This document shows positions 4,506 to 23,767 of a DNA stretch of 33,959 nucleotides, in pieces; the first letter of the stretch is position 1, and each line of letters opens with the position of its first letter. The stretch is taken from IMG/VR virus record IMGVR_UViG_3300008107_001068, positions 1 through 33,959 of that record; one strand, 5' to 3'. The notes under the pieces are model-generated. The model was not told where the DNA came from and made no database searches. It worked only from the letters and a program-made list of their open reading frames with translations. The DNA comes from a virus. The position numbers and the translations under genes are program-made.

Positions 4506-5231
4506 TTACCAACTCATCACTTCTAGCAAAACGTTAAAATAAGCAAACGAACCTACCGCTGGTGAGGTTCTATTTCCAAGTCTAATTGCAACAGAAGATG
4601 TACCAGTACCTGCTATAAAAGCTTTACCTCCATTAAATACACCAGCAGGAAAGTTAGTACCATCTGAATTGAAACTAGCTGTTAATGAACCACCTTCTAC
4701 TGTATAAAGACCTGTGCTATCGTTGTACCATATTCCAACTAGCCATTCTTTATAAAGTCTTGATTGAGCTGGAGTTACTGGATTACTAGTAGGCCAATAT
4801 GCTCCATGAACTTTTACTCTTACAAAGTTATATGATGCAGAACTATTGATTAAATACGGCCATATATCAATATCTTGAGTTGCTGTTGCCTCAGTAAAAC
4901 TGGCATTAAACATGTCTTGATATAATTTTCCGGCAGCGGTTGTACCAAGCTGAAAAGTAGCAAGACCAGATATGTTACCACCTGTAATATTCACTGAAGC
5001 TGCTGATTGGGTACTTATAGTACCTAAGCCTAAATTGGTTCTAGCTGTCGGCGCATCAGTAGCACCAGTACCACCACCAGAAATCTGCACGGTGCCTACA
5101 GCATTATTTGTTGCTGAAGTAATTCTACCTTGTTGATCTACAGTAAACGAAGGAATTTGTGACGCACCACCATAAGATCCTACTGTAACCGCAGTATTAG
5201 CTAACGTAGAACTTCTAACTCTTGTTATCAT
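4506..5231 (-). CDS. Short tail fibre, paralogue of the 339-aa fibre
   Basis: This 241-aa fibre begins with ITRVRSSTLANTAVTVGSYG then QIPSFTVDQQGRITSATN, a module common in phage side fibres. It has one GGGTGATDAPTARTNLGLGT repeat, the lambda Stf-type tail-fibre repeat. The C-terminal ~130 residues form a distinct globular domain (SRLYKEWLVGIWYNDSTG, FNSDGTNF.AG..NGG) ending in LLEVMSW. The 339-aa fibre at 5521-6540 has the same three-part plan and a clearly homologous C-terminal domain, so the two are duplicates. The C-terminal domain is the likely receptor-binding part (inference). No strong Shine-Dalgarno is visible; a GAAG lies about 13 bases before the ATG. Confidence 0.8.
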   Translation of the reverse strand: MITRVRSSTLANTAVTVGSYGGASQIPSFTVDQQGRITSATNNAVGTVQISGGGTGATDAPTARTNLGLGTISTQSAASVNITGGNISGLATFQLGTTAAGKLYQDMFNASFTEATATQDIDIWPYLINSSASYNFVRVKVHGAYWPTSNPVTPAQSRLYKEWLVGIWYNDSTGLYTVEGGSLTASFNSDGTNFPAGVFNGGKAFIAGTGTSSVAIRLGNRTSPAVGSFAYFNVLLEVMSW

Positions 5232-5239
5232 TTTTTAAT

Positions 5240-5527
5240 TTATTCTTCTACAGGACAATCTTCAAAGATTTTTTGTGCCCTAAAAATTTTATCATCAAGT
5301 TCACTCCATGATACAATAGCTGCAATCGCAGATGCTTGATCATTTAAGTCAACTTGTTCATCAATATCAACCTTGTTTAACACACAATGGCCAGAGTTCT
5401 GAGGATTTATAATTTGTACCTGAACTGATTTACTGTTATGATCAACAAGTATATGTAATTGATAATTTTTATAGGTATGCTGATATATTGACATACCGTT
5501 TGCTTGTAAAATATTGTTATTTACCAT
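5240..5527 (-). CDS. Small protein between two paralogous fibres, function unknown
   Basis: This 95-aa soluble protein has a beta-like first half (YQHTYKNYQLHILVDHNSKSVQVQII), an acidic second half ending FEDCPVEE, and two Cys. It has no transmembrane segment. Its start overlaps the end of the 339-aa fibre by seven bases and its stop lies eight bases before the 241-aa fibre, so it is translated as part of the fibre operon. Small genes placed directly after fibres are often fibre assembly chaperones, and that is a reasonable guess here, but I recognise no family. Confidence 0.65.
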   Translation of the reverse strand: MVNNNILQANGMSIYQHTYKNYQLHILVDHNSKSVQVQIINPQNSGHCVLNKVDIDEQVDLNDQASAIAAIVSWSELDDKIFRAQKIFEDCPVEE

Positions 5528-6540
5528 TTTGTTATCTCGAATAAAGTATAGAAATAAGTTGACGAATCTGCTGCTGGTGATGCTCTATTTGTAAATCTAT
5601 ACACAAGAGAAGTTGTTCCAGCACCTACTATAGCGGCTCTACCAGAATTCCAGGCGCCCGCAGCAAAGTTGGTGCCATCGCTATTAAAAGCAACTAGGTT
5701 TGTACCAAAATCTACTGTATAAACACCTGTACTTTGATTATACCATATTCCAACAGAAAAGTCTTTATAAAGTCTTGATGGGAGTGGATTGACCGGATTA
5801 AAAGCATTTGGAATATATATTCCCTGAGTTTTGATTCTCAACACTGTATAAGAAAAGGAACTAGAGAGTATGTATGAACCTAAATCCACATCTGCCGCTG
5901 GACTACTAGAAAACATACTTGTAGTTGACGCAAATGTTTCATATTCTCCTGTTGTTCCACCATATATCGAAACCGATCCATACAAGTTTGCATCAGAGAA
6001 ACCACTGGTTGAAAAAGTACTAAGTGATGCTATTGCACCTCCTGTGATACTTACTCCTGTACTATTTTGAGTACTCATAGTACCCAAGCCTAAGTTGCTT
6101 CTCGCACCTCCAGCATCAGTAGCTCCTGTACCACCTTTGGCTACAGGAACAGTGTTCTCAACTGCAACGCTACCTAGACCCAAATTAGTTCTAGCTGTTC
6201 CAGCATCAGTAGCACCAGTACCACCTTTGGCTACAGGAACAGTATTTTCAACCGCAACAGTACCTAGACCCAAATTAGTTCTAGCTGTTGCAGCGTCAGA
6301 TGCTCCAGTACCACCATCCGCAACAGCAAGATCAGTAATACCAGTTACCGAACCACCAGTAATATTGACATTACTTGAATTTTGAGTTGCCATAGTACCA
6401 AATAATATAGCAGCATTTGCTGCTGAAGTAATTCTACCTTGACCGTCTACAGCAAATGTAGGAATTTGTGTTGTACTACCATAAGTTCCAGGTGTAACGG
6501 CAGTATTAGCTAATACTAAACTTGTTACTTTCGTTGTCAT
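5521..6540 (-). CDS. Tail fibre with GGTGATDA repeats
   Basis: This 339-aa fibre begins MTTKVTSLVLANTAVTPGTYG then QIPTFAVDGQGRITSAAN. Four GGTGA[TS]DA..ARxNLGLG units lie at about residues 79-160, and the central ones form 30-aa near-identical copies. These are phage tail fibre repeats of the lambda Stf type. A C-terminal globular domain follows (SRLYKDFSVGIWYNQSTG ... FNSDGTNFAAG ... FEITKW), homologous to that of the 241-aa fibre downstream. It likely forms a trimeric fibre with a receptor-binding tip. An AAGGTGA ribosome binding site is present upstream, and the frame overlaps the end of the 891-aa fibre by four bases (ATGA type). Confidence 0.82.
   Translation of the reverse strand: MTTKVTSLVLANTAVTPGTYGSTTQIPTFAVDGQGRITSAANAAILFGTMATQNSSNVNITGGSVTGITDLAVADGGTGASDAATARTNLGLGTVAVENTVPVAKGGTGATDAGTARTNLGLGSVAVENTVPVAKGGTGATDAGGARSNLGLGTMSTQNSTGVSITGGAIASLSTFSTSGFSDANLYGSVSIYGGTTGEYETFASTTSMFSSSPAADVDLGSYILSSSFSYTVLRIKTQGIYIPNAFNPVNPLPSRLYKDFSVGIWYNQSTGVYTVDFGTNLVAFNSDGTNFAAGAWNSGRAAIVGAGTTSLVYRFTNRASPAADSSTYFYTLFEITKW
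6128..6307 (-). repeat. 90-bp near-identical tandem repeat in fibre gene
   Basis: The plus-strand block GTACCACCTTTGGCTACAGG occurs at 6128 and again at 6218, exactly 90 bp apart. TACCTAGACCCAAATTAGTT recurs at 6171 and 6261 with the same period. It encodes the 30-aa VPVAKGGTGATDAG.AR.NLGLG unit. The near identity suggests recent duplication. A related single unit lies near 5023-5080 in the paralogous fibre. Confidence 0.85.
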
Positions 6541-9212
6541 TTATTATCACCTTTGAGTGTGTTTATTTCTTGCTTTAATTCTTTGATAGCTTCAACTAAC
6601 AATCCAATCATATTTTGATACATGACTGATTTTCCATTTTCGTTTTCTGAAACAAGATAAGGAAGAATTTCTTCAACCTCTTGAGCAACTAGACCCATAC
6701 CTTTTTCTCCAGTATCTTTCCAGTTATACTCAACACCTTTCAATCGCATGACAGTATTCAACGCATCAGAAATTCCTACAATATTTTCTTTCAGATTTTT
6801 ATCTGATGTTGCTGTCATTATAGTAGCAGACAATGTTCCAGTTGATGGAACAAACGTCAATTTGGTGCTTGAAACATTAGAACTGAAACTTGTACCAGAA
6901 GTTTGTTGAGTAAATGTAATATAACTGGTGCTTGAACTTGATGTGTCATCGGTTACTGTCATACCGATGGGTCCTGCTAATTGTGCATTTGTAATTAATC
7001 CTACAATACCTGTATTAGCAACAGAGCCAGCAGAACCAGTAATGCTTGCAGTAAATGTTACACCTGAGTTTGCTTTATTATTGACAAATGCAGTTGTAGC
7101 TATTTGTGTATTACCAGAAGGACTATTAATTGTAGGTGTTGGTGCAAGTACAACATTAGTGAATGTTTGAGTTCCACCATTCGTGTTAGCATAATAAGTC
7201 ACTAGTTTAGATGTTAATCCATCAATGGCTAATTGAATACTATTCGCTGTCGGTGAGATATCTGAATTAATTGTGTATGCAATATTGTTCGCATAATATG
7301 GGTTATTGATATATCCATCAACTTCAAAAAGAATATTAATTCCACTTGTTACAGGAGTTGTAAACGTAACGCTAGTGTTACTTGTTTCTGTATAGCCTGC
7401 GGCAAACTGTCTAACACCATCAAAATACACTCTTAATTGAGCCGCTCCCGGTATATACGTTGGTGTCGTGTATGCTGAGGTTACACCATTTGCAATATAT
7501 GATAGACGAGAGGAGCTAATCGTTGTTCCTGGAGTGGTTCCACCTCCACCACCTCCGCCACCTGCTGCCCAATAGAAACTTCCTGGACCACCAGTAGTCA
7601 GAATATATCCAGCAGTTGTTCCTGTCGGAAGAAGTGCAGTAAGTGCTGATGCTGCTGATGTTGATCCAGTACCACCTTGTGAAATCGCAAGTGGATTGGT
7701 TAAAGTTAAACTATCGAATGTTGGGCTTGCTGTACTTCTTAAATCTTGTGATGTGCTAATATTAAGTACGTTTGATGAACCGTATATTGTAACACCATTA
7801 TTACTGCTGAATGAAATAACTCCAACAGAACCAGTAGCAGCACCAGTCGTTCCATTGAAAACACCATTGTTTGCTCTATTAAATGCTGCTTGAGTTAGGC
7901 TATTGGTAGCAGTAACATTAGCATTTACAGTAAACATTTGTGACTGCAATGCTATTATGTTACCATTAGCAGTATTAGCACCTACCCATGCTTGGTTAGC
8001 AGTAAATGCACCCATAGAAGCAAAGGTATTAGTATTATTGATCCAAACATTTTGTGTGTTTGACACATTCTGTAAGTAATTTACTGTTACAGAACTTGCA
8101 ATATTATTAGAACTTGGTAATACGGTGGAATCACTAATTAAGTTTGCTGTTAGTATTTTAGAATAGCTAATAGGATTATTTACATCTTTAAGCTCCCACC
8201 AATCATTAATCTCATTCCATTTTATTTCAGCATTTGATAATGGTCCTCTAGCATTAATAAAGCTTCCATTTGAAGCAATAATTTCTGCGGAATTAATTGT
8301 AAAGGTAGGTGAGTTATATGCAGTATCACCATTAATGAAGAAAGTTCCTTGAACTACTACAGTATTCGAAACAGTTCTATCAGCATATATAAATGCTTGG
8401 TTTGCATCTATCTTTGATGTTACTATTAATTCTGGTGTCGTTGCTAATACATTTGCTGTAATTAAATTACTAGTGACAGATGTGGTACCTATAACGACAG
8501 GAGATATTACTCTAGTATTTGCTGATATTATACTACTAATAACATTACTTGAAGCTACAACCGTAGGTGTATTAATCTGCGTGTTTGCTGTAATAAAATT
8601 ACTTGTGACAGATGTGGTACCTATAACGACAGGAGATATTACTCTAGTATTTCCTGATACTACATCACCAATAACATTATTTGCTCCTACTATTATAGGC
8701 GAATTAACAGTACGACCAACTATTAGATTATTCGAGAAATTAACATTACCATTAGCAACATTTAGTTTGAATGGTCCTGCAAATGCTGAACCAATATACA
8801 CGTTACCGTTGCCATCAATTACAGTTGAGTTTGCACCTGCTGTACCCATTCCTCCTGGTTGAGGATTAATTCTTAATACAAGTCCTGAACCAGACTGAGT
8901 AATATTAAGTATTGTATTAGCATCATTTGCAATAAAGTAATTGTTTGATGCTCCTATGATTGAACCATCAACCTGAATATTTTTTTGAATATAGGCAGAT
9001 GAACCAATACCAGAAACTTGAAGTTGTCCTTGAACAACAGCATTGTTTGCTACTTGGAGACCAAGAGTGGGAGAGCTAAGAAATAAAGTTCCTGTTGATT
9101 TTACATAATTATTCGCAGCAAGATCATTATTTTCTTGTATGAGTTTATTTGTAGTAACTACCCAATCGCCAAAAGTATTGGCATAGCTCAATAAAGTAAC
9201 TGTATTAGCCAT
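6537..9212 (-). CDS. Long tail fibre with C-terminal intramolecular chaperone (peptidase S74)
   Basis: This 891-aa fibre has an N-terminal NTVTLLSYANTFGDWVVTTN segment, followed by a long beta-rich stem with repeated ISPVVIGTTSVTSN.ITAN units. An NTxxALQ..M repeat is shared with other fibres, and a run of eight Gly (residues about 545-560) acts as a linker. The C-terminal ~89 residues form an intramolecular chaperone: SDKNLKENI, GVEYNWK, GMGLVAQEVEEILP and YQNMIGLLVEAIKELK are the classic S74 landmarks. In that family the chaperone helps fibre trimers fold and then cuts itself off before the Ser, here S803. The mature fibre would therefore be about 802 residues. An AAAGG site precedes the ATG. 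It is the best candidate for a long trimeric receptor-binding fibre. Confidence 0.9.
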   Translation of the reverse strand: MANTVTLLSYANTFGDWVVTTNKLIQENNDLAANNYVKSTGTLFLSSPTLGLQVANNAVVQGQLQVSGIGSSAYIQKNIQVDGSIIGASNNYFIANDANTILNITQSGSGLVLRINPQPGGMGTAGANSTVIDGNGNVYIGSAFAGPFKLNVANGNVNFSNNLIVGRTVNSPIIVGANNVIGDVVSGNTRVISPVVIGTTSVTSNFITANTQINTPTVVASSNVISSIISANTRVISPVVIGTTSVTSNLITANVLATTPELIVTSKIDANQAFIYADRTVSNTVVVQGTFFINGDTAYNSPTFTINSAEIIASNGSFINARGPLSNAEIKWNEINDWWELKDVNNPISYSKILTANLISDSTVLPSSNNIASSVTVNYLQNVSNTQNVWINNTNTFASMGAFTANQAWVGANTANGNIIALQSQMFTVNANVTATNSLTQAAFNRANNGVFNGTTGAATGSVGVISFSSNNGVTIYGSSNVLNISTSQDLRSTASPTFDSLTLTNPLAISQGGTGSTSAASALTALLPTGTTAGYILTTGGPGSFYWAAGGGGGGGGTTPGTTISSSRLSYIANGVTSAYTTPTYIPGAAQLRVYFDGVRQFAAGYTETSNTSVTFTTPVTSGINILFEVDGYINNPYYANNIAYTINSDISPTANSIQLAIDGLTSKLVTYYANTNGGTQTFTNVVLAPTPTINSPSGNTQIATTAFVNNKANSGVTFTASITGSAGSVANTGIVGLITNAQLAGPIGMTVTDDTSSSSTSYITFTQQTSGTSFSSNVSSTKLTFVPSTGTLSATIMTATSDKNLKENIVGISDALNTVMRLKGVEYNWKDTGEKGMGLVAQEVEEILPYLVSENENGKSVMYQNMIGLLVEAIKELKQEINTLKGDNK
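8473..8652 (-). repeat. Exact 48-bp direct repeat in the fibre stem
   Basis: The same 48 bases, starting GTGACAGATGTGGTACCTAT, occur at 8473-8520 and 8605-8652, 132 bp apart (44 codons). They encode NTRVISPVVIGTTSVT twice. The flanks are similar but diverged, so the exact core suggests gene conversion or a recent duplication. Confidence 0.9.
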
Positions 9213-9436: not shown

Positions 9437-12097
9437 TTACAATCCTGTTCCAGATGGTAAAGCTAATGCTCGTATGTCAGTCACAAAAGGTATATTTGTT
9501 GTATCTTCTGTTGTCATAACAAACTTGATTTGGAACTGATTAAATGAATTGTAAGTTTCGGTTCCTTTTGTATATGAAATAAAGTTATCTGCTAAATTAT
9601 TGACACCAGGAGCACATTCATATTCAATTAGATTTTGTTTTGATAGTGAATATGATATTGTACTTGTCTGAGTCATTAATTGCCATTCTTTATCATCAAT
9701 TACATCCGTATCGTCCGAATTCAGAATCTTATAATACACATAGATTTCTGTTCCTAGAGGTTTGTATGCTGTATAGAATACTCTTAAATCACCAGATTCA
9801 TTGTCTGGAGTTAATTTTACTACTTTTGTCAAGTATCTTGCGGTTGTTAAATTACCTCCACCAGATGAAGTCTCTCCACGAACAAGAACGGTAGCAGGAG
9901 TTGTATTCGCTCCAGTAATTGTGATTGTAGGAGTTTTAACATACCCAGAACCAAAGGTTGTCAAATACACATTGGTAATTACATTTGAAGTTAGAACAAC
10001 TCCACATGTTGCAGCATCACTACCAATATCAGGTGGACTTACAGTAGCAACTACGTTTGCTGGATGATACCCTGTTCCTCCATCTACAATTTCAATCATG
10101 CTGTTAGACAGTTCAAGATTGTTAATCACATATCTAATGTTATACAGACTTACACCATCATCTGCGATAATTGGAGATGTGTTAGAATCTGCTGTTGCCA
10201 TGGTTGCAAAAAGTCTAAATGAGTTATTTGCATCTCTAAGCAACGCTCTTGGTCCTCTTCCATCATCATAATCAACATCATCATATGTTGGTGATCCAAG
10301 TCTTCCTGGGAACACAGGGAACTGTCCAACAACAGTATTTGCACCATCATTTAATGTTGCACTTGCGGTGTACTTAATTACTGCTCCTGTTGGAATAAAA
10401 TCTGTTGTAGTGACGTTTACTGCATCAGAACGCATAACTGGTACCTTTTGTGCAAAGTTACCATAAGTATTATTGATGCTAGCCGGACTGGTTGTATGAA
10501 CAATATCGTTGAGAACATCAATTGCTCTAAATGGTAAACCAGAAGGTAAAGAGAATTCCAAAGTTTTTGAGTCTGATGTGGTGAATACACATTGATCAAT
10601 TACAAACATCATTTGTTTAGTTTGATCAACTTGCCAGGTGACAGCGTTTTGGGATTCGAATAATCCACCAACATATGGAGTTGCTCCAATTTTCCCTGGG
10701 TTAGCAGGATTAGGATCGGTTGGCAATGCTTTTGTTGTAGAAGGCACGGCAACAGCGTTTTGTTGTCCAAAGTATACTGTGTAGTCAGGACTATGCGAAA
10801 ATACAACAAAGGCATAAAAAATACTATTTTGAATGTAAACAGGAGCAGGAAATACGAATTCCGTTGCTGTTTCTGGATCAAGCCAATGTGGATTATTTGA
10901 AATTTTAATATCTTGAGCCTTCACTCTAGCTACAGAATAATCTAAATTTTTTCCATTAGGGTAACCATTTGTCGTTCCAACAACATACACTTCAACATCA
11001 GGAGCATTAGGTCCAGTTGGTTTTGATTGGAAGAACAACTTAACTGAACGTAAGAATGCTCCATTTGGATAATTGTCTTTAGGAACAGCGAACGTTTGAG
11101 CAAGAGGATCTTTATTGTGTACTAAGATAAACTTGTCACTACCTTTCAAACGTACATGATATGTTTTGTTTCCATGTAGTTTGAAGTTATAAAGTTGTAG
11201 ATCCGGAGCATCTTCTTTGAATTCAATGCTGTCTACTGTTAACAATGAGCCATCAGAGCATATGATTTCATCTCCAAGCTGTAATTGAGTAATGTCTATA
11301 TTTTCATTCTTCAAGGTTTCAGCGTGTAGAATCTTACACACTAGCATGAACTTCTCTGCACCTTTCATACGTACATGGTATGTTTTGTTTCCATATAGTT
11401 TGAAATTGTAGAGTTGCAGTTCTGGAACATCTTCTTTAAATTCAATAGTTTCTACTTTTAGTAGTGAGCCATCAGAACATATAATTTCATCACCAATTTG
11501 CAGTTGAGAAATATCAATGTTGTCTCCTTTTAGAGTCTTAGCATGAAGAATCTTACACATTTCTACTGTAGGTGTTCTCCAACCAGAGGTTGTTTTGATC
11601 ATATGATCTTCTGAGACAGAGAAGTTTGATTCATTAATTGATGCCAGTCTTAGTTTATGTGGTAAGATGTGATCATTGAGTCCCAGAGTTGGTCTGTGGA
11701 ATTCTCTTACTCTATTTTCAGATCCGTTTTCACCAATTAATACATCATTTATTTCAACATCTTCAATGTTCTTCCAAGTGTTGTCCTTCATGAGGACTTC
11801 TGTGCCTGAAGTAAAGCACTTGTTATGCACTAAGATAAACTTATCACTACCTTTCATACGTACATGGTATGTTTTGTTTCCGTACAATCTAAAGTTATAC
11901 AATTGTATTTCTGGAGCATCTTCTTTAAATTCAATGCTTTCAACTCTTAGTAGCGAGCCATCGGAGCATATGATATCGTCGCCAAGTTGTAATTGAGTAA
12001 TGTCAATATTCTCAATCTCTAAAGTCTTGGCATGTAGAATCTGAGAAGTTATAAACTTGAAGATCATCTCTGTCAGAATGTTCAGACATAGTTTCAA
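9437..12097 (-). CDS. C-terminal part of giant gp10-region structural protein, preceded by Hint domains
   Basis: This 886-codon frame has its first possible start at TTG 12097, with an internal ATG near 12067; no good ribosome binding site is seen. Residues 18-93 are a Hint C-terminal half-module ending LVHNK. Residues 94-180 are a second Hint N-terminal half (Cys94 in CFTSGTEVLM, SxxH at Ser162/His165). Residues 181-253 and 254-329 are two further C-half copies. From residue 330 (DPLAQTFAVP) to the end is the C-terminal extein. It contains a GGTGY-type beta repeat near residues 660-740 and the ALALPSGTGL end. The extein continues the protein encoded at 12012-17909 and appears to belong to the large DUF4815-type structural protein of marine T4-like phages. 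The frame is one base out of register with its upstream partner. No endonuclease domain is present. Confidence 0.85.
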   Translation of the reverse strand: MKLCLNILTEMIFKFITSQILHAKTLEIENIDITQLQLGDDIICSDGSLLRVESIEFKEDAPEIQLYNFRLYGNKTYHVRMKGSDKFILVHNKCFTSGTEVLMKDNTWKNIEDVEINDVLIGENGSENRVREFHRPTLGLNDHILPHKLRLASINESNFSVSEDHMIKTTSGWRTPTVEMCKILHAKTLKGDNIDISQLQIGDEIICSDGSLLKVETIEFKEDVPELQLYNFKLYGNKTYHVRMKGAEKFMLVCKILHAETLKNENIDITQLQLGDEIICSDGSLLTVDSIEFKEDAPDLQLYNFKLHGNKTYHVRLKGSDKFILVHNKDPLAQTFAVPKDNYPNGAFLRSVKLFFQSKPTGPNAPDVEVYVVGTTNGYPNGKNLDYSVARVKAQDIKISNNPHWLDPETATEFVFPAPVYIQNSIFYAFVVFSHSPDYTVYFGQQNAVAVPSTTKALPTDPNPANPGKIGATPYVGGLFESQNAVTWQVDQTKQMMFVIDQCVFTTSDSKTLEFSLPSGLPFRAIDVLNDIVHTTSPASINNTYGNFAQKVPVMRSDAVNVTTTDFIPTGAVIKYTASATLNDGANTVVGQFPVFPGRLGSPTYDDVDYDDGRGPRALLRDANNSFRLFATMATADSNTSPIIADDGVSLYNIRYVINNLELSNSMIEIVDGGTGYHPANVVATVSPPDIGSDAATCGVVLTSNVITNVYLTTFGSGYVKTPTITITGANTTPATVLVRGETSSGGGNLTTARYLTKVVKLTPDNESGDLRVFYTAYKPLGTEIYVYYKILNSDDTDVIDDKEWQLMTQTSTISYSLSKQNLIEYECAPGVNNLADNFISYTKGTETYNSFNQFQIKFVMTTEDTTNIPFVTDIRALALPSGTGL
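11111..11338 (-). repeat. Hint C-half module, copy 3
   Basis: 76 codons from CKILHAETLK to LVHNK, joined directly to the C-extein DPLAQTF. Its key motifs are GDEIICSDGSLL, LQLYNFKLHGNKTYHV (block F) and FILVHN (block G). It is a diverged copy of the modules at 11339-11557 and 11819-12046. Confidence 0.9.
11339..11557 (-). repeat. Hint C-half module, copy 2 (lacks terminal HNK)
   Basis: 73 codons from CKILHAKTLK to KFMLV. It follows the Hint-B N-half directly and would complete that domain, but it stops before HNK and runs straight into the CKILHA start of copy 3. It therefore lacks the Asn needed for C-terminal cleavage. Confidence 0.9.
11819..12046 (-). repeat. Hint C-half module, copy 1
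   Basis: 76 codons, SQILHAKTLE to ILVHNK, in the frame of the downstream gene part. It begins right after Hint-A is cut at YNF and is followed immediately by Cys94 of Hint-B. It is the same length as copy 3 and closely similar to it. Confidence 0.9.
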
Positions 12098-15000
12098 TTT
12101 TAAATCCTACACCGTCTACAGTTTCAATGACATCACCAACTTCCAACTTACCTATGTTCCAGTCAGAAAGTTTTTTATACTTTAATTTTGTCGCAACTGG
12201 ATCAAAAGATTTCCATGTGCCATCTTTCATGTAGACTGGATGATCATTGGTTATGAAAGGAGTGCTATCATTTAGAGAGATTAGTGTTCTTTCTCCCAAT
12301 ACAGGTCTGACATACTCAAGCACTGTATTAACAGAACCATCTTTACCAATCAACTCATCACCGATTTGAACATCTTCAATATTTTTGATAGAACCATCAG
12401 CCATGGTAATCTTTGTTCCAGCAATGAAACAACAACCTCTAAATCCTTGTTCTGCTATTACTTGCTGAGTGACAGTTGTTTGTGTCGCAGTACCTATGAA
12501 AGCACCACTTCTCTGATTGGTTTGTATAAAAGTTTTACCACCAGCATCAACTGACGGAGCAAATTCTAATTTTTGTCTAGAAGATGATAATCCAGAGGCA
12601 GTAAATGTTGCTTCTGCATAACATGTAGCAGTTAGAGGATCATTAGATATAGTTCTGTTATCAAGTCTAAAGAGTCTTTCACCAGTTCTGAATCTATTTG
12701 GACGAATCTCAAATAAACCAGTTACATTACCTTGAGCATCACTAGAGAAAGTTGGTACTGTAGTGCCATCTATAATTGCTTCTTCTAAACTAACAAGGTT
12801 ACCTTTAATACTGTATGTGGAATTAATGTTTCCAAATAATTGATTATCTCCTAATGATAGATTGACTGGTGTATCTAAAGTCGCAATTCTTAATTGACCA
12901 TCATAATCTATGATATTTGCGGTGTATGTTTCTATGCTTTGTAGAACATATCCAGTTCTTCCATCAGGTCCAACATAAGTTCTGCTTCCTACAGTAATTC
13001 CTCCATCTCCTGCGCCTCCAGATGTAAATGGAACAGGAATTTGTAGTGTGCTACCATCAGACAGATAAGTGTACAGATATTTTGTAGTTATGGTTATAGT
13101 TGAACCAATATAAAAATCATCTTGTTCACTTGCTCCTGCGGCCAAAGAAACTCTTGTAAATCCATCAAAGTATGCTCCTCCTAAAGGCAAGATTATTTGA
13201 GTTCCGCTTGGATAATCTACTGAAGGTGGATATAAAGCATTGAATACAATGTTTCTTCCTGGTGTTCCTACTGGTTCTGTTATAATACATGCAAGGCCAG
13301 ATTGAGTTGCTACTGTGGCAAGTGGTGTACCAGAACCATTTGCTGTTATTCTTATTGTGTGATTTCCAGGTGTCAACGAGATTGTCTTACTGACAGTTCC
13401 CGTTGGAGTCGCATTATACAATTCAGTAGCACTTATTTGAACAGTTCCGTCAATAGTAATTGTTGCTGTTCTATTCACAAATGGTGCTGTAGTGTCTCTC
13501 CAAGAACTAGCAGCTATAACATAGTTACCACCAGTGTTTGCTGTGAAAGTATATGTTGCATCCCAACTACGATATGCGGTAATATTATTACCAGTTGCCC
13601 ACATACCATTTATTTTTAAGAAATCACCCCAAGTAGCATCAGTCTTTGTGGATCTAAAAATTAAGTTCGCATTTGTATTTGCATTTGTAATAAGTGATCC
13701 TGCAGGACCTCTAATTGTTCCAGACACGTTTAGTGGTGAAACTCCAGATGATAGTTGTCCACTAGCGGTAGTAGATCCTGAAACATAAACTCCATTTTCA
13801 TCGAATCTAGCATTTCTTAGCGTAGCTGCCGCTAGGTATTCTGGTGCACCATCAATATCAAATATAGCCAAATTATAAGATGTTGATGCTCCTGGTACCT
13901 GTGTTACTCCCAACACTCTTCCTACAGGATAAAACACATTAGCTATCTCGAAACCTACAATATCATCTTCTCTGAAAACTCCAGATACATTATCTACTCT
14001 AATAATGTTAGGACTTACAATGTCATTAGATACATCTACTCCATCAAAGAATGCTTTTAATTTAGCATTAGCTAGTAATCCTGATGCTCTAAAGCGGACT
14101 CTTTGTGGACGAATGTATCCAAGTATCCCAATATTTGTTATATAACCATTGTTTAATCCAATAGTTGAATTAATTGCAGAATATCCCGAATTAATAACAT
14201 TTTGTATTTGATTACCAAATACATTAAATGTTTGTGTTGTCGTAGTTGTTTGTATGTTTCCAGTAGTGGTTACGGCTGTGGAAGTACCAGCAAGAGTTTG
14301 GCTTGTTGTTCCTGGAATTGTTTGCCAGTTACCAGCATTTTGAATGAGATTTGTTCCACTAGCTTGAAATAATTGTAGTCTTGGATCCACTACTAGAATA
14401 TCAGGTGCTTGTTGATTATCTACCCAATTATCCATAGGAGGACATAATTGCATAGATCCTTCATTTCTGATAACACCAAATGGATTTACAGATACTACGC
14501 TACTTGCTAGTGTTTGTCCAGTAATAAATTTGGTTGTGTAGGGTAGAGTGTATATATTTGTACTACCGGCAATAGTATGAACATAAAACGAATTTGTCTG
14601 TTTTATTGTTCCCAATGAATTTAGAACTATAGGATTTTTTAGTGCTAAATTATCTACAATACTTCTAGGTGTCAATTGTTTCTTCGCAATATCAATTTTA
14701 GCATTAAATCCTTCAGATAGTCGTGTATCTGCTGTTGCATATGAAGAAAAGTCATCTACAAGAATACCATTCTTAAATCTGTTCAAACCATTTGAATCTG
14801 GAATTTGTAGTGACTGTGCATTTTGTTCGAGCAAACTTAATGCAGTATAGTATTCGAGATTGTTAACACGATCCTGTAAATCAGTAATATCTCGTTTGAT
14901 CCAATTTTTATGTTGTACTCTTTCTATACTATAATTTGTCTGTTGTGTTGTCGAATCTTCACCTGGAATATAACCTGTATATGGATCAAGAGTCATCTTT

Positions 15001-17909
15001 GCAAGCAATAGTGCTCCGTCAGGTTCAGCCGGGAATGTAGGATTAACAGAAGGTGTTCCTAGAATAATATCAATTGTATTATCTTTTGTTATGACAAGTT
15101 TATCTTTTCTTCCTAAGTAGTATGCATAATCATGTGTAAAGTAACTTAGGTTTTGAGGAATTAAGATACCACTATCGTCTGGTGCAGATGGATTCCCAGT
15201 ATATTCCAAAGTAAATGGAACCGAAGAAACACTACCAGATGGTGCCTGTCTAACTGGTCTAAAATCTAAACTGTCAGTAAGTCTGTAGTTGATACCCGCT
15301 TTACTTGTATATTGACCAATTTCTCTATATTGATCTGGTGAAGAAGATATTGGGGTTAGATAAGAATTTACATCAAAGTATCCATCTCCTCCAGTATGTG
15401 CATAGTAATCAAAAATAACCAATAGATTTCCTAGTGGTCTAGAAGCTCCAGGTTTCAATCTAACAGCAGAAAAATCATAATAGTTATCTCTTTGTCCATT
15501 GTCTAGCAAGAACAAACTAGTTACATCATATGAAGAATCAGACAACATTGATGTTGTTGGTACTGTTACTGACGATTTTGTACTAATAATTTTTCTAATT
15601 TTCTTAACATCAGAAACATATAATGATGTTGTTTTTCCTACCGCAGATTCTTTAATATAAATTTGTCCATTTGTCAGATCAAGATAGGTATTAGCATCAA
15701 CAATCGCTGTAGGACCAGCATAACTCACTATCTGAGTATTTCCTACTACAAGATTTTTTGCCTTTAAGACTAACGTTGAGTTATCAGCATTTCCTACAGA
15801 AACTCCAGCAATAACATCTACTGTTGTTGTACCATAAACAGGTGTTGTGAATGTTGCTGTTTTTTGGTCGGAAGAAATAACAACAGTATTTCCAGCAGAT
15901 ACAAAATCTAGAATTTGTCTATTATTTGCCTTATTAACTACAGTAAAGTTTTGTTTAATGGCATCTGACGATAATGTTCCTGTTCCAATAAATTTGATAT
16001 TTGCAGTATTAACAGGAAGCGATAGAGTCATTACAAAATTTCCACCTGAGCTGGTGAAAGATTTTGATCTGAAAACTTTTTGTGAAATATAGCTACTATC
16101 AGAAATATTTGATACGTATGGATAACCAACAGTGAACAGCAGTTCCGCTTGAGTAGGATTATATAATATTGTATCACCAGTAAACAATCCGTTAAATTTT
16201 CCTGCATTCGGTATGTTAGCCGATGCAGTTCTAACGGTAGGTGTTGCAGGACCATTTGGCACATTAATCAAAGACTCAATATCTGTTGTTGAAAACAGTA
16301 AATTAAATTGAGTAGAATTTGTAGGATTTAATGTGAATGGTGAATCGACCGTTGCTGTTTTTGTTGTTCCATCATACGATACAATTTCTCTAACATCAGT
16401 ATAACCAGAAGTTAATGCGGAAATTTTAACACCAAAATATGCGTTTGCTACAGCAGAGAATTTTCCATTAGTGTCATTAAATTGAATTGTTGTTGGGGAT
16501 GACCCTGCTGCTAATGCTGTACCACTTAAAGTATTTGCACTTACATCAGTAATATACATTTTGTATGAATATGACGATGTATCTGAATCTGATACACTAC
16601 TTTCATAATCAATATTTCTTAAGAATGCAGAACCAATTAAAGTAGCAGAATATGTTACTGAGTTTGTTGAAACAATATTTGAATTTGCTACACAATGCAA
16701 ATCAATCTTTGGCATTGTAGTAATATCAAAGGTACCAGAAACATTATTTGCTAACACATAAGAACCATAATCAACATAAACTTGATTGTTATTAATAATG
16801 TTATTTGATCTTGCTCTAGGGGTAGAGAATGTTATGTCTGACTGATTTTCTACTCTGTACCCACGAATATATGCTAATCCTTTACTAATTTTTAAATCAT
16901 AAAGATCCGGATTTACAGTATTTGCAGTTGGTGTAAAACTAAACTCATTAACGATGAAATCACCATCTGTTTCGTATGTGCGTTTTGAAATATAATCATT
17001 AATAACTGAATATACTGTTCCGTCAACTTGTTTTAGAATTTTACCATTTTCAAGTCTGACAAGTTCAATAAATTGATCATCATTTCCTGGTGTGAGAGGT
17101 AATACAACTAATTCCAATGAAATTTTATATCTGTCTGCACCAGGTGCTTGATAATTTGATGCTCCTACAGCAGGATCTAAAAGTGAAGTATCATCAATAT
17201 AATCTACAATTGTTTCTGTAATTGAAAGTCCTACACGACCACTTGGATTACTAGCATACTTGTCAAGAATAATTGTCTGAGGTAAAACACTTACAAAATT
17301 ACCAATTGAATATCTGTTATATGTTCCATCTGGGTTCTGAACATTTGAAGTGTTATAACCATTAATGATGTAAAAAATACCCTCTGAAATTGATACTGTT
17401 GAAGATGCACCTGTGCATGTTTCAGCCGATGTATTTGTGCCTATAGTAGTGGCAGAAAAATTTGATCCATCGGTACAAATAATTGTAGATGCGTCCTTAA
17501 ATTTAGCTCCAGTATAGTAGGTTACAACAAGAGTAGGAGGATCAATTAAAGTTCCTTCTGCTACAGCAATAACTCTTGCTTGAACAATTCCATTTACATC
17601 TTGAATATCTTTGTTTAGAAAATTATTAACGTCAATTTCAACACCAGAAAATTGAGTTTGTAGCTTTACGTAATAAGCTCCAATATTTCCTATAGCTGCA
17701 AAGTTAAGTGAAACTCTTCCACCAGAGACTGGAGTATTTTGACTAAAAATGGCATCAGCAAAATTACTAATTTGATTTTGCAGAATAGTTTGAGATTGTG
17801 TTAGTTCTCTTGCTTGTACAGCATATCCTGGTTTGAAAAGTATTCTATGAAAATTCTTTGATGGATCAAAATCATCATAATATGGGTCAACATTAAAATT
17901 TAGGGCCAT
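12012..17909 (-). CDS. Giant gp10-region virion structural protein (DUF4815-like), N-terminal part ending in a truncated Hint domain
   Basis: This 1965-aa baseplate-periphery protein has an N-terminus (MALNFNVDPYYDDFDPSKNFHRILF, GYAVQARELTQSQTILQNQI) matching the large structural protein encoded after gp8 in marine T4-like phages, which I know as DUF4815. It is a positional counterpart of the T4 gene 9/10 region. Residues about 990-1045 form a short coiled coil (DLQDRVNNLEYYTALSLLEQN) followed by a conserved GLNRFKNGI block. Residues about 1405-1525 resemble a PA14- or carbohydrate-binding-like beta sandwich (TYTFTANTGGNYVIAASSW). From Cys1827 a Hint domain starts (TxxH at Thr1887/His1890) and runs to LQVYNF, then goes out of frame and stops at 12012. 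The rest of the structural protein is encoded at 9437-11110. Without the Hint DNA the exteins total about 2380 residues. An AAGGA site precedes the ATG. Confidence 0.88.
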   Translation of the reverse strand: MALNFNVDPYYDDFDPSKNFHRILFKPGYAVQARELTQSQTILQNQISNFADAIFSQNTPVSGGRVSLNFAAIGNIGAYYVKLQTQFSGVEIDVNNFLNKDIQDVNGIVQARVIAVAEGTLIDPPTLVVTYYTGAKFKDASTIICTDGSNFSATTIGTNTSAETCTGASSTVSISEGIFYIINGYNTSNVQNPDGTYNRYSIGNFVSVLPQTIILDKYASNPSGRVGLSITETIVDYIDDTSLLDPAVGASNYQAPGADRYKISLELVVLPLTPGNDDQFIELVRLENGKILKQVDGTVYSVINDYISKRTYETDGDFIVNEFSFTPTANTVNPDLYDLKISKGLAYIRGYRVENQSDITFSTPRARSNNIINNNQVYVDYGSYVLANNVSGTFDITTMPKIDLHCVANSNIVSTNSVTYSATLIGSAFLRNIDYESSVSDSDTSSYSYKMYITDVSANTLSGTALAAGSSPTTIQFNDTNGKFSAVANAYFGVKISALTSGYTDVREIVSYDGTTKTATVDSPFTLNPTNSTQFNLLFSTTDIESLINVPNGPATPTVRTASANIPNAGKFNGLFTGDTILYNPTQAELLFTVGYPYVSNISDSSYISQKVFRSKSFTSSGGNFVMTLSLPVNTANIKFIGTGTLSSDAIKQNFTVVNKANNRQILDFVSAGNTVVISSDQKTATFTTPVYGTTTVDVIAGVSVGNADNSTLVLKAKNLVVGNTQIVSYAGPTAIVDANTYLDLTNGQIYIKESAVGKTTSLYVSDVKKIRKIISTKSSVTVPTTSMLSDSSYDVTSLFLLDNGQRDNYYDFSAVRLKPGASRPLGNLLVIFDYYAHTGGDGYFDVNSYLTPISSSPDQYREIGQYTSKAGINYRLTDSLDFRPVRQAPSGSVSSVPFTLEYTGNPSAPDDSGILIPQNLSYFTHDYAYYLGRKDKLVITKDNTIDIILGTPSVNPTFPAEPDGALLLAKMTLDPYTGYIPGEDSTTQQTNYSIERVQHKNWIKRDITDLQDRVNNLEYYTALSLLEQNAQSLQIPDSNGLNRFKNGILVDDFSSYATADTRLSEGFNAKIDIAKKQLTPRSIVDNLALKNPIVLNSLGTIKQTNSFYVHTIAGSTNIYTLPYTTKFITGQTLASSVVSVNPFGVIRNEGSMQLCPPMDNWVDNQQAPDILVVDPRLQLFQASGTNLIQNAGNWQTIPGTTSQTLAGTSTAVTTTGNIQTTTTTQTFNVFGNQIQNVINSGYSAINSTIGLNNGYITNIGILGYIRPQRVRFRASGLLANAKLKAFFDGVDVSNDIVSPNIIRVDNVSGVFREDDIVGFEIANVFYPVGRVLGVTQVPGASTSYNLAIFDIDGAPEYLAAATLRNARFDENGVYVSGSTTASGQLSSGVSPLNVSGTIRGPAGSLITNANTNANLIFRSTKTDATWGDFLKINGMWATGNNITAYRSWDATYTFTANTGGNYVIAASSWRDTTAPFVNRTATITIDGTVQISATELYNATPTGTVSKTISLTPGNHTIRITANGSGTPLATVATQSGLACIITEPVGTPGRNIVFNALYPPSVDYPSGTQIILPLGGAYFDGFTRVSLAAGASEQDDFYIGSTITITTKYLYTYLSDGSTLQIPVPFTSGGAGDGGITVGSRTYVGPDGRTGYVLQSIETYTANIIDYDGQLRIATLDTPVNLSLGDNQLFGNINSTYSIKGNLVSLEEAIIDGTTVPTFSSDAQGNVTGLFEIRPNRFRTGERLFRLDNRTISNDPLTATCYAEATFTASGLSSSRQKLEFAPSVDAGGKTFIQTNQRSGAFIGTATQTTVTQQVIAEQGFRGCCFIAGTKITMADGSIKNIEDVQIGDELIGKDGSVNTVLEYVRPVLGERTLISLNDSTPFITNDHPVYMKDGTWKSFDPVATKLKYKKLSDWNIGKLEVGDVIETVDGVGFKIETMSEHSDRDDLQVYNFSDSTCQDFRD

Positions 17910-17918
17910 TTTTTTTCC

Positions 17919-19301
17919 TTAATATCCTAATACAAATCGTAATTGTTCTATTCCATCGACACTTCTTTGAATTGAGCTTCTATTCTCAACAAAAATTATG
18001 TGTCCTGAAAAAATATCATAATCTGGATTACTTATTGTTAAAGTTGTTCTTGCGGTACCAGACGTATTTCCAAAAATTGTAGAGTTAGGTACTGGTGTTC
18101 CTACTGTATTTATCAACCTAAGCACACCGGTTGCATCATCAAAACTTAAAACTGTTGCAGTAAATGTTGCTGTTGATAAGCTAGATCCTTGATATACAGT
18201 TTCATCGGCTAGATATGTTCCAAGTCCACTTACCAAAACTAAATCAGTGGTTGTTTTGAATATTTCGGAATTTGCAACATCAGGATAACTTCCTTGTGAA
18301 TATGGATTTACTACAAGTCCAATTTGACGAAAATCTATATCTGTAGGAATTAATCCATTTTCATTTCCATCAAATTCTATAGTAAACATTACACGGGAAC
18401 ATCCTAACTCTGATATTGGATCTGTTCCATGTCCTGATATAGGGGAAACAGGAGCTATAGCTGCTGCACCAGAACCTTGACTTGAAGTTATGGTTACATT
18501 AGAATAAGTGTAATTACCACCAGGATTAGTCACCACAATATTAGTAATGACATTACTGACTACGGTTGCTGTTCCTGTTGCACCTGTTCCATCACCTGTA
18601 ACTGTTATTGTGATTGGATTGTTTGCTGGATTATATCCTGAACCACCATCAAGAACATTAATCACATCAATATTTCCCGAACCTGCAGGAGTTGTTTGCC
18701 ATGGTGGAGAATATAATGATGTTGGTCCTGGTCTACCAATAGGAATAGGAATCCAAACGGTATCCATAAACTTCAGTTTTGCACCAATATCAACGGTGTA
18801 CATGTATTTCCACTTGTAACCGTCAGTACCTAGATACAAATTGTTTGATGTGTATGTACCTGGTTGAAAGTAAGGTTCATCTGAAACAACACCATCATTA
18901 TTATTCCAAAGACATTTAAATACTTGATCAAAACGATTCTTGATATAAAATTTTCTTACTAAGAATCCATTTTGATCTATCTCAAGCATATCAACATCAT
19001 CACGATAATAATCGTATGTTTCTCCTGCTACCCAATCAATTCGTTCAACTACTGGAGAAATATTATTCGTTCCTACTTTTTTAGCAACAAAAATATTTTT
19101 ATATATTTTCTTTAGACTTTTTTGATCTTGAGTTGGTATAGGAGGAACATTTTCATTGGGCCAAGGATCAACTTTTGCTAAAAAGCAATAAAAAGTTTCC
19201 ACAAAAGTGTCTGTAGCAAGTATCTGAGAAACAGGAGAATAGTATTGCTCTCTGACTCCTGTTAGCCTTGCACCGTATGTGATTATATTTTGATTTGCCA
19301 T
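17919..19301 (-). CDS. gp8: Baseplate wedge protein gp8
   Basis: This 460-aa protein is recognised as T4 gp8-like. The N-terminal region has the TFVETFYCFLAKVDPWPNENVPPIPT pattern (compare gp8 with GRSEPW and PPYP) and GYKWKYMYTVDIGAKLKFMDTVWIPI. In T4, gp8 dimers join the outer wedge and bind gp10, gp7 and gp6. T4 gp8 is 334 aa; the extra length here is mostly an insert at about residues 210-290 with a GGSGYNPANNPITITVTGDG repeat that also occurs in gp6, gp7-like and the gp10-region protein. The gene lies between a fibre-like protein and the gp10-region gene. The ATG is preceded by AATAAATA at a 4-base spacing, with no clear Shine-Dalgarno. Confidence 0.85.
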   Translation of the reverse strand: MANQNIITYGARLTGVREQYYSPVSQILATDTFVETFYCFLAKVDPWPNENVPPIPTQDQKSLKKIYKNIFVAKKVGTNNISPVVERIDWVAGETYDYYRDDVDMLEIDQNGFLVRKFYIKNRFDQVFKCLWNNNDGVVSDEPYFQPGTYTSNNLYLGTDGYKWKYMYTVDIGAKLKFMDTVWIPIPIGRPGPTSLYSPPWQTTPAGSGNIDVINVLDGGSGYNPANNPITITVTGDGTGATGTATVVSNVITNIVVTNPGGNYTYSNVTITSSQGSGAAAIAPVSPISGHGTDPISELGCSRVMFTIEFDGNENGLIPTDIDFRQIGLVVNPYSQGSYPDVANSEIFKTTTDLVLVSGLGTYLADETVYQGSSLSTATFTATVLSFDDATGVLRLINTVGTPVPNSTIFGNTSGTARTTLTISNPDYDIFSGHIIFVENRSSIQRSVDGIEQLRFVLGY

Positions 19302-21069: not shown

Positions 21070-21654
21070 TTATCCTAATAAGATGATTCTATCGTCTTCC
21101 GTTGTAATTGTTTGTCCAGATTCAGTAATGAGTTCTGGATTATATTGTACTCCTATTGGTCCATAGATAACTACTTGGCCTTGATTTCCAAGAGTTCCAC
21201 CAGCAGAGAAAGTTCTCAACACACTTAGATTTGCACCAGCGTTTGCTGTGACCGCAGAAGAAAGAACAATATTACCAGTTTCGTAGTTTATAGATGAAAC
21301 TGTTCTTATGGCACCGTTTACTCTTACCTGATCTCCTACATATACAATGTCTTTTAAAGGATATGCAGTATTGCTGTAAATACCATTATTAATGATATTG
21401 TAAGTGCCAGTTAGTGATACTATATTTATTGTGGTGCATGAAGAAACCGCAGAAATATTCGCTACATTTGGGAATGTCAACCACGTATTTGCTGCTATGG
21501 TAATGGTGTTCGTTGCTGGATTAATTGAAGTAATTTCAGAGTGAACATTTGGTCCATTTGTTGGTGACAATGATATCGTGCTGTTTGCAAAAATGAAGTC
21601 TTGTAGTTGTATCCAAATCAAGTTCGTTATTAGACTTGAGTGCATATCTTCCAC
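21070..21654 (-). CDS. gp7: Displaced 3' end of gp7-like gene (out of frame)
   Basis: The open frame reaches back to an ATG at 21654, but that start lies inside the upstream coding frame and has no ribosome binding site. The real content starts near 21588 with ANSTISLSPTNGPNVHSEIT and runs 172 codons to a TAA at 21070. It is beta-rich (NTITIAANTWLTFPNVANI, YVGDQVRVNGAIRTVSSINYETG). It reads smoothly on from RLHF in the upstream frame if one T of the five-T run at 21589-21593 is skipped. I therefore take it as the C-terminal domain of the gp7-like protein and not as an independent gene. Confidence 0.7.
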   Translation of the reverse strand: MEDMHSSLITNLIWIQLQDFIFANSTISLSPTNGPNVHSEITSINPATNTITIAANTWLTFPNVANISAVSSCTTINIVSLTGTYNIINNGIYSNTAYPLKDIVYVGDQVRVNGAIRTVSSINYETGNIVLSSAVTANAGANLSVLRTFSAGGTLGNQGQVVIYGPIGVQYNPELITESGQTITTEDDRIILLG

Positions 21655-23767
21655 GAAGTTTAGTTCCAGACGGGTGAAGCAAGTTAAGTAAAGTTTCTCT
21701 GTATTTCGCTATTTCTTTTTCTACAGTGATTTGATACGTAAATTGATTATGATCTTCATCTTGTAGAATACTAAATGCACTTGGCTGACCTCTAGTATCT
21801 AGGTATTGTCCTTGACTGAATGTTAATCCATTTAGGAATGAAGCATCTGCTTTTGCTGTTCCATCACCATACGTTCTAATTCCACTTGTAAATTGAGGAC
21901 TTCCAGCAAAGAAATAATTTGCTGGATAATTATTATTATCAATATTTAAGACCATGTCCTGATTTGATATTTTTAATTGTAAAGCAGGATTTGGTGTTGT
22001 GCTATAATTATATACTCTAACTCTAAATTTTGATAGTTCTTCATTTAAATTAGGTTCAAGTATGCTAAAAGAATCAATACGAGCAACATAAGTTGCAACG
22101 TTTATATTAGCTCCTTGAAAAATTGTATTTCCTGTTTGAACTATTAGATTTAAATCTACATTTGAAACGATAATGTCTTGCACTCTTAAAGAAAGTGATG
22201 GTGCAGAAACATAATCTTCTCCTGGATTAATCGTATTGATTGTAGTGATTGCTCCAATACGATCAGTTGTTAATCCGAAATCAGCTCCTCTACCTAAAAT
22301 ACCATCAACATACAAGTTAGCACTAGTTCCTCCAGTTGATACCACGTTAAGTGTAGGTAACGCTTCAAGACTATAACCCATTCCACCATAAGGATAGTTA
22401 CCGTCAGCAGAAACATAATCTACTGAAGTAATTTGTCCATTTGCAGCTACGTTGGTTACATTTGCAAATGCACCATAACCAGAACCTCCTGTAATGGTAA
22501 TAACATCATTGATAACATAACCCGTGCCACCATGTGCTATTTGTATAGGACCTAATATTCCTAATGCACCTAAATTTCCAGGTGCAGAAGTATAGTTTGT
22601 TGGGTATGTTGATATAGCTGCTACACCAATTTGATTTTCTGCACTAATTCCTCCACCACCATTTAGAACAGAAACAGAACTTATAGGATAAGCTAAAAAT
22701 GATACTGTGTTTGAAAATGCATTTGCTATAGTTGTATTAGCATTAGCAGTAGAATTTACGCTGATGAATGAATATACTGCGTTTCCTATAGGTACATTAG
22801 CAGAAAAAGTAATGCTAGTAGGAATAATTAAACGTACATTAGCTAAAGTTTTTTGTGCAGGATCAAATCCTGCTGGTTCTGCTGCTGCTCCTTCAGCATT
22901 TGTTAAAATGATGTCTGTATTACCATTTGCATTATAACCATATCCACCATCTAGTACACTAATTCTTTGTATTGCTCCTAGTGTTACAGAACCAACTGTT
23001 GCTGTTGCTCCGATTCCAGTATTTGAATTTAATCCACCAACAAAAACAACAGGATCTCCAACTTTATATAACTGTCCTCTAAAATTTGGATTGATTCTTA
23101 TTTGACCAATTTGTCCAATGATTTTAGCACGAAGCACTTCACCATTAAACAATACTGGTTGATTGAACGCATCAACAATTTTTGCAAACTCTCCTGACTG
23201 AAAGAGTCTGGAGATATTTGATATATAAATTTCTGTTCTTGTATTTGCTAGTACAGCATTTTCAATTGTAGCGATTGTTTTTGATGTTTCACCAAATAAT
23301 CTAAGATTTTTTGTGCCAAGAAAGTTTGGATCATCAGAAGCTAAACGAACACTTTTCGCAACATACCAAGCACCATCAGATGCTTTAAGAACAGAATCAT
23401 ATGTATTGAAATATTCAAAATCAGAATCATAGAGAACTCTGAATAGAAAACTATACGATGCTGGTGTTCCTTTTGCTTTATATAATTGACGAGCAATTTT
23501 TATTGCTTTTCTTTTGTCTATTAATGCATCTTCTGGAAAATACGGAAGAAAATCATTAACAAAATAATCAATAAATTCATTTGTCGTTTCATCAACATCT
23601 TTATAGCTCAATAGATTTTTTGAACGATCCAAAGCTTGACCGTTCTGTTCCATCCATTCATAGTATGCTTTAAGAAACTCAACAAATTTAGAATAGTCAG
23701 GATTGTCCCTGATGAACTCAGGGAGCTGCGATGGTATTAATATCGAGGTCTTTTTATCTGTTGCCAT
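21536..23767 (-). CDS. gp7: Baseplate wedge protein, gp7-like (P2 gpI-like N-terminus), frame broken near 3' end
   Basis: This is a 743-codon frame directly after gp6. Residues 82-120 (DKRKAIKIARQLYKAKGTPASYSFLFRVLY) carry the KGTP motif typical of P2 gpI-type proteins, the simple-phage counterparts of T4 gp7. The gene order gp25-gp6-this gene equals P2 W-J-I. In T4, gp7 binds a gp6 dimer to form the wedge core. GGxGY beta repeats occur at about residues 260-290 and 405-480. The last ~17 residues (CKQHDIIVTNKWTKCSL) are unlike the rest and arise from a frame change near 21590. Joined to 21070-21588 the protein would be about 898 residues, closer to T4 gp7 (1032). The ATG lies two bases beyond the stop of gp6. 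Confidence 0.72.
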   Translation of the reverse strand: MATDKKTSILIPSQLPEFIRDNPDYSKFVEFLKAYYEWMEQNGQALDRSKNLLSYKDVDETTNEFIDYFVNDFLPYFPEDALIDKRKAIKIARQLYKAKGTPASYSFLFRVLYDSDFEYFNTYDSVLKASDGAWYVAKSVRLASDDPNFLGTKNLRLFGETSKTIATIENAVLANTRTEIYISNISRLFQSGEFAKIVDAFNQPVLFNGEVLRAKIIGQIGQIRINPNFRGQLYKVGDPVVFVGGLNSNTGIGATATVGSVTLGAIQRISVLDGGYGYNANGNTDIILTNAEGAAAEPAGFDPAQKTLANVRLIIPTSITFSANVPIGNAVYSFISVNSTANANTTIANAFSNTVSFLAYPISSVSVLNGGGGISAENQIGVAAISTYPTNYTSAPGNLGALGILGPIQIAHGGTGYVINDVITITGGSGYGAFANVTNVAANGQITSVDYVSADGNYPYGGMGYSLEALPTLNVVSTGGTSANLYVDGILGRGADFGLTTDRIGAITTINTINPGEDYVSAPSLSLRVQDIIVSNVDLNLIVQTGNTIFQGANINVATYVARIDSFSILEPNLNEELSKFRVRVYNYSTTPNPALQLKISNQDMVLNIDNNNYPANYFFAGSPQFTSGIRTYGDGTAKADASFLNGLTFSQGQYLDTRGQPSAFSILQDEDHNQFTYQITVEKEIAKYRETLLNLLHPSGTKLRGRYALKSNNELDLDTTTRLHFCKQHDIIVTNKWTKCSL

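Follow-up and report, generated by a model that had tools for sequence, protein, structure and literature searches.

What interrupts the gene of a large baseplate-periphery protein directly before its DPLAQTF motif, and what could the interrupting domains do to the protein? This question is raised by the IMG/VR virus record IMGVR_UViG_3300008107_001068, of which we analyzed the whole stretch of 33,959 nucleotides (the window). A minus-strand gene starts at position 17909 and its product matches DUF4815 (Pfam E-value 8.4e-58) and phrog_358 (PHROG E-value 1e-233). The N-terminal extein of this DUF4815/phrog_358 protein (12432..17909, minus strand) comprises 1,826 residues before a cysteine (Cys1), and a Hint (hedgehog/intein) match begins at residue 1827. 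The frame from 12012..17909 meets a stop inside this domain, named Hint-A in the sequence-only reading of the window, and the remainder of the gene lies in another frame (9437..12097). The C-terminal extein, the VrlC-like part of phrog_358 (9440..11110, minus strand), begins with DPLAQTF and matches phrog_358 with an E-value of 2.1e-66 (best stretch 326-549); among the GenBank phage matches listed, most begin at or near the start residue of DPLAQTF and several are annotated as VrlC.

The interruption lies where it had been placed from the sequence: on the minus strand Hint-A opens with a Cys codon at 12431, the final Asn codon runs to 11114, and 11113-11111 encode the Lys directly before DPLAQTF. 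Profile searches returned Hint matches in both frames. The neighborhood contains further baseplate genes, namely a Gp8-like wedge protein (17919..19301) and a wedge subunit (23770..25845), the latter sharing about 40% identity, across 70% of its length, with wedge proteins of the Methylophilales phage Melnitz and the Pelagibacter phage HTVC008M. Elsewhere in the window, two tail-fibre-like ORFs (4506..5231 and 5521..6540) have GGTGA-DA--ARTNLGLGT repeats in common, and the adjoining ORF (6537..9212) has an S74 chaperone domain at its end.

Using the Hint region as query, we retrieved from IMG/VR a near-identical contig of 163,380 bases (IMGVR_UViG_3300008108_000057; G001, with its Hint locus L002). 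The alignment takes in the whole window and G001 bases 23631-58310 at 99.9-100% identity, and is broken at three stretches of G001 that are missing from the window. In L002 the gene is one uninterrupted frame, 3,022 codons from stop to stop, and encodes four tandem Hint units of 147, 163, 163 and 163 residues. All units end in His-Asn-Lys, with the Cys of the next unit directly after the first three and DPLAQTF after the last. The sequence-only reading had described two Hint domains with extra half-modules in one interrupted structural gene; this open frame rules out two Hints as the native state, and the gene is indeed a single one in L002, although the window copy is split over two frames. 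The earlier estimate of about 2,380 extein residues agrees with the 3,022 codons minus 636 Hint residues, and the absence of an endonuclease was borne out as well, since units of this size (146-147 and 163 amino acids in intact relatives) leave no room for one. No further type-1-like Hint was found elsewhere in G001.

The comparison with L002 explains each part of the insert in the window (all on the minus strand). Hint-1 (12042..12431), a type-1 unit with TNDHP as block B, is truncated before its C-terminal block by the first loss, and its frame stops at 12012. At junction 1 (12042..12042), 317 bp are absent according to blastn, with a 1-nt overlap and loss of the frame. The C-terminal half of Hint-2 (11819..12042), ending in His-Asn-Lys, and Hint-3 (11339..11818), a type-2 unit with SEDH as block B, lie within a 704-nt block that is 100% identical to L002 7789-8492. 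The final His-Asn-Lys of Hint-3 was removed by the second loss, in which 270 bp are absent at junction 2 (11339..11340) with a 2-nt overlap and the frame kept. The C-terminal half of Hint-4 (11111..11340; equivalent to L002 8761-8990) terminates in His-Asn-Lys. At junction 3 (21601..21602), 134 bp are absent without any overlap, so that another virion gene falls into two ORFs, 21536..23767 and 21070..21654. The half-modules are thus present in the window as reported, but are not native: they are what the losses spared of Hint-2 and Hint-4, in each case the C-terminal half. Altogether, the window contains three related C-terminal Hint halves (mean column identity 83%), one of which is fused out of frame to Hint-1.

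Relative to the four-Hint row, the window copy is shortened and its frame is broken. Because the losses occurred without homology and two of the three break the frames of virion genes, they are likely an assembly or library artefact. A genuine deletion variant, i.e. a defective or altered phage, would fit the 99.9-100% identity to G001 beyond the three junctions, but we regard it as improbable: the lost stretches (134, 270 and 317 bp; overlaps of 0-2 nt) all lie in virion genes and two of them break frames, which is at odds with recombination between tandem repeats, expected to be in register. A programmed frameshift was ruled out, as the frame is uninterrupted in G001 and the window loses it at a junction. 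Assembly-driven expansion of the L002 array was also rejected, since the DNA of its units diverges by 18-22%. Having no continuous reading frame, the window copy is unsuitable as the reference form of the array, and the case is a warning that viral contigs can misrepresent tandem Hint arrays.

To characterize the fold, the H1-H2 pair of a relative (L003) was modelled with AlphaFold2 (pLDDT 84.0; pTM 0.49, so that the placement of the two units relative to each other is weakly constrained). The best solved structure for this model was BIL2 of Tetrahymena thermophila BUBL1 (Z 19.3, 142 aligned residues, 2.1 Å), with the Clostridium thermocellum BIL (Z 16.1) and the gp41-1 intein (Z 15.8) tied in second place. 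Nearly all VIA-align rows for the pair model were restricted to residues 10-169, and we therefore made a second model of a single type-2 unit, L002 H3, the intact form of Hint-3 of the window (pLDDT 92.8, pTM 0.85). It matched BIL2 (Z 17.8), the C. thermocellum BIL (16.2) and the gp41-1 intein (15.6). Other inteins and hedgehog proteins ranked below these (hedgehog: Z 14.2 for the pair, 13.7 for the type-2 unit). Foldseek was also used for structure comparison of both models, and a profile-sequence search of PDB chains likewise had BIL2 and the C. thermocellum BIL on top. Both models thus have the Hint fold of the hedgehog/intein superfamily, in agreement with the original assignment of the insert. 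Among domain profiles, PT-HINT of Pfam aligns with type-2 units over their C-terminal half, and H1 reaches 14.4 bits against the intein C-terminal model TIGR01443, below its cut-off of 15.6.

Viral scans yielded 89 ORFs with at least one full-length Hint unit, from which 21 were picked by hand: 19 with DUF4815 or DPLAQ, plus L006 and L113, which have the same kind of array. Near-copies (L087, L093, L108), single or weaker units in other proteins and units below 50 bits were excluded. According to a hand tally of array sizes and spacer lengths over these 21 ORFs, six have one full unit, eight have two, two have three, four have four and one has six (50 units in total). Cys1 and the block-B Thr/Ser-x-x-His are present in 50/50 units and a C-terminal His-Asn in all 49 readable unit ends; one member of the set, L225, had been found by a pattern that requires His-Asn-Lys. 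The +1 residue is Lys in 40 and Arg in nine cases, whereas the Cys, Ser or Thr that defines the C-extein +1 position of inteins occurs in 0/49. With Cys1, block-B Thr/Ser-x-x-His, terminal His-Asn and a +1 residue other than Cys, Ser or Thr, the units have the complete set of features of A-type BILs. Since the catalytic residues are kept, self-processing by the array units is plausible as judged from their sequences.

These residues also bear on the possibility that the units are silent Hint folds, serving as structural spacers that lengthen a baseplate arm in the manner of repeated tail-fibre domains. A unit number ranging from one to six would suit such a role, as would the long and variable linker found at this site even without Hints. 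Cys1, block-B His and terminal His-Asn in every readable unit, together with the constant Lys or Arg at +1, would be needless for a pure spacer, and this reading is unlikely in our view.

The arrays are tightly packed. A single residue separates the Asn from the next Cys in 23/29 unit-unit junctions, and the remaining six have 2 to 17 residues. Among the 15 multi-unit ORFs, 10 begin with type-1 units (144-155 residues) followed by type-2 units (163-167 residues), and four contain two type-1 units. L231 combines a type-1 unit with one of a different kind, 155 residues long, that is likewise found at the end of L007. In L004, a frame change close to the end of the contig breaks the fourth unit (6831-7318). 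L006, L009 and L113 have an extra terminal Hint-like unit without the final His-Asn. A different Hint-like C-terminal unit was observed in L315 (3979-9477), L312 (2476-7899) and L319 (4000-9459) and at the ends of L009 (4448-11647) and L006 (1571-7084): it retains Cys1 and an xxNHP block B, ends VNGYGTTSI-like without His-Asn and is followed by a similar C-terminal region. Units of this kind may be limited to N-terminal chemistry, as far as their sequence indicates.

In a tree of the units, for which the tree tool gave a long-branch warning, 21 type-2 units form one group (100/99). Units cluster by array in L006 (H4/H5, 100/97) and L002 (H2/H3, 98/93); clustering across phages was seen for L003 H2 with L004 H4, at 96/60 only. 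Pairs of units within the L002 and L006 arrays differ mainly at third codon positions (dS about 0.8-1.6), with dN/dS values of 0.063, 0.068 and 0.106 among L002 H2-H4 and 0.044-0.138 over the six pairs of four L006 units, values that are rough where dS is near or above 1. Judged by this pattern, the copies in both arrays are old and have been kept by selection.

A DNA pattern for the one-residue junction, which also requires the Lys, hit 14 IMG/VR contigs, 12 of them true and two by chance. In 74 further viral Hint units, counted from 93 hits after removal of array units recurring under other locus ids, +1 is Lys in 59, Arg in 10, Ser in four and Gly in one. The 21 bacterial and archaeal units are more mixed (Lys 8, Cys 4, Asp 4, Thr 4, Ala 1), and no ORF with two units was found among the bacterial and archaeal relatives (73 loci; 22 units past the filter). 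Two or three weaker Hint units occur in other proteins of L040, L047, L050, L051, L061 and L121. Tandem Hints in other viral proteins were seen in L402 (743 onward), L394 (1 onward), L051 (6121-8835) and L050 (7706-10447), and these proteins include Gly-rich types that appear tail-tip-like by eye.

A tblastn search with three Hint pairs against 50,697 GenBank records matched 14, 38 (25 listed) and 22 records, all below 60% identity. The tandem array was absent from the three GenBank phage records inspected (Ruegeria, Ruminococcus and Klebsiella phages); the Ruminococcus phage has single Hints in two ORFs and the Klebsiella phage an insert. In Ruegeria phage DSS3-P1 (L390, 1501-2004), an intein-like insert ending in His-Asn-Thr lies in the annotated tape-measure protein. 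An exact-phrase search of open-access PubMed Central found no mention of tandem Hint or intein arrays, which is weak evidence of absence.

If the residues before DPLAQTF were a normal, uninterrupted part of the structural domain, related phages should retain them. Hint-free relatives carry a variable linker there instead. In a first extein scan (best 80 of 553 relatives), Hints lie directly before DPLAQTF in four. In a second (best 80 of 128, 77 with a readable motif), this is the case in one, the L002 contig itself, with weak Hint matches in the upstream ORF at five loci. All remaining loci of both scans have a linker of any composition: the C-extein of L311 is 69% identical and preceded by TITRR (...TITRR-DPVAQTF), and L233 reads ...GGGGGGK-DPLAQTF. 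A Lys or Arg precedes DPLAQ in 29 of 133 sequences without a Hint at the site, so inheritance from the extein does not by itself account for the invariable basic +1 residue. The presence of tandem Hints without an endonuclease in a baseplate-periphery protein is backed by profile matches, modelled structures, relatives and homologues that lack Hints.

That the units are ordinary endonuclease-free inteins, spliced out without trace, appears quite improbable. The Hint fold itself, the gp41-1 intein tied with the C. thermocellum BIL as second-best fold, and the weak, sub-threshold match of H1 to TIGR01443 would agree with it. Against it stand the Lys or Arg at +1 in 49/49 units, where Cys, Ser or Thr never occurs, BIL2 as the clearly top-ranked fold, and a site that is a hypervariable linker and not the conserved position, such as an active site, expected of an intein.

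In 27 of the 77 readable loci of the second scan, the protein is encoded as two ORFs, with the break 163-183 residues upstream of DPLAQ and away from the Hint site. Where read, many first ORFs of such loci have a Pro/Gly-rich linker and then an exchangeable module at their end. Other modules in the same slot were observed in L322 (4144-9462), L337 (602-5788) and L331 (4262-9478): they comprise IICTKLY... and CCVVATVM..., neither of which scores above the cut-off of any Pfam or NCBIfam model, and an end that by eye resembles an S74 chaperone.

Taken together, the insert is probably a tandem array of A-type-BIL-like, self-processing Hint units in a variable baseplate linker before DPLAQTF of a T4-like phage. 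The architecture is unusual, the domain type is known. By analogy, we infer the following chemical steps and their timing: each unit would fold, and Cys1 would convert the upstream peptide bond to a thioester by an N-S acyl shift. The last Asn of the unit would then cyclise and cut the bond before the Lys or Arg. As +1 is never Cys, Ser or Thr in the arrays, the usual transesterification would be impossible, and cleavage at both unit ends would be the outcome. Less surely, ligation could follow, with the freed amine (the alpha-amine of Lys/Arg or a Lys side chain, the latter as reported for Tetrahymena BIL2) attacking the thioester. A review (PMC7765530) denies A-type BILs the ability to ligate, whereas the title of Aranko 2013 refers to ligation without nucleophilic side chains. 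The mature protein would consist of two chains held together, or of a single rejoined chain with a few basic residues retained. A two-chain product would be compatible with function, given the relatives in which the two sides are separate ORFs, although the break in these lies away from the Hint site, and a product that is cut at the array or rejoined would account for the tolerance of zero to six units.

We also consider, as a speculative extension with low odds, that the Hint row could be an ATP-free protein-joining device. Here, a thioester and a freed Lys/Arg amine beside a neighboring unit would, during assembly, let the baseplate protein be rejoined covalently, be cross-linked with a partner subunit or be attached to a target, much as Tetrahymena BIL2 passes ubiquitin-like domains on to lysines; His-Asn-Lys/Arg, found in 49/49 array units and 69/74 further viral units, would be the signature of such a device. 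BIL domains have mostly been described singly, to our knowledge, and the arrays raise the question of why many copies are kept. A virion protein with one to six BIL-like units makes direct tests of baseplate cutting and re-ligation in assembly possible. If ligation does proceed via Lys/Arg amines, the units would also be candidate tools for joining proteins without a Cys, Ser or Thr on the C-side.

Among known systems, the top viral structure matches in BFVD were 'Hint domain containing protein' entries of uncultured Caudovirales (E-value 7.7e-13 and weaker), so phage Hint proteins have already been annotated. Phage inteins such as those of the phiCbK and Rak2 terminases are likewise Hint domains within phage proteins; those described in excerpts of PMC3556154 and PMC5259590 interrupt enzymes, and the phiCbK terminase intein ends in His-Asn followed by Ser, whereas the array units continue with Lys or Arg. 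The PT-HINT domains of polymorphic toxins resemble the C-terminal half of type-2 units in the Pfam match, but instead of a toxin domain the phage units are followed by a virion-protein family, with matches to phrog_358, phrog_877 and VrlC-annotated phage proteins. The closest fold match, BIL2 of T. thermophila BUBL1 (PDB 6tmm, 6y75), joins proteins by an isopeptide bond with a Lys amine as acceptor, according to PMC8616854. The same source places BIL2 between ubiquitin-like domains, whereas the phage units lack such flanks; they abut each other, mostly at one-residue junctions, and flank a baseplate protein. According to PMC7664689, BIL domains have no nucleophile at +1 and chiefly cleave, and the review (PMC7765530) has A-type BILs capable of cleavage, with ligation impossible. 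As far as these two sources describe them, A-type BILs (C. thermocellum BIL, PDB 2lwy) share with the phage units the Hint fold, Cys1, block-B His, terminal His-Asn, the lack of Cys, Ser or Thr at +1 and hypervariable surroundings. The phage units differ from them in standing in rows of up to six with mostly one-residue spacers, in an invariable Lys or Arg at +1 and in having a conserved phage baseplate protein as host.
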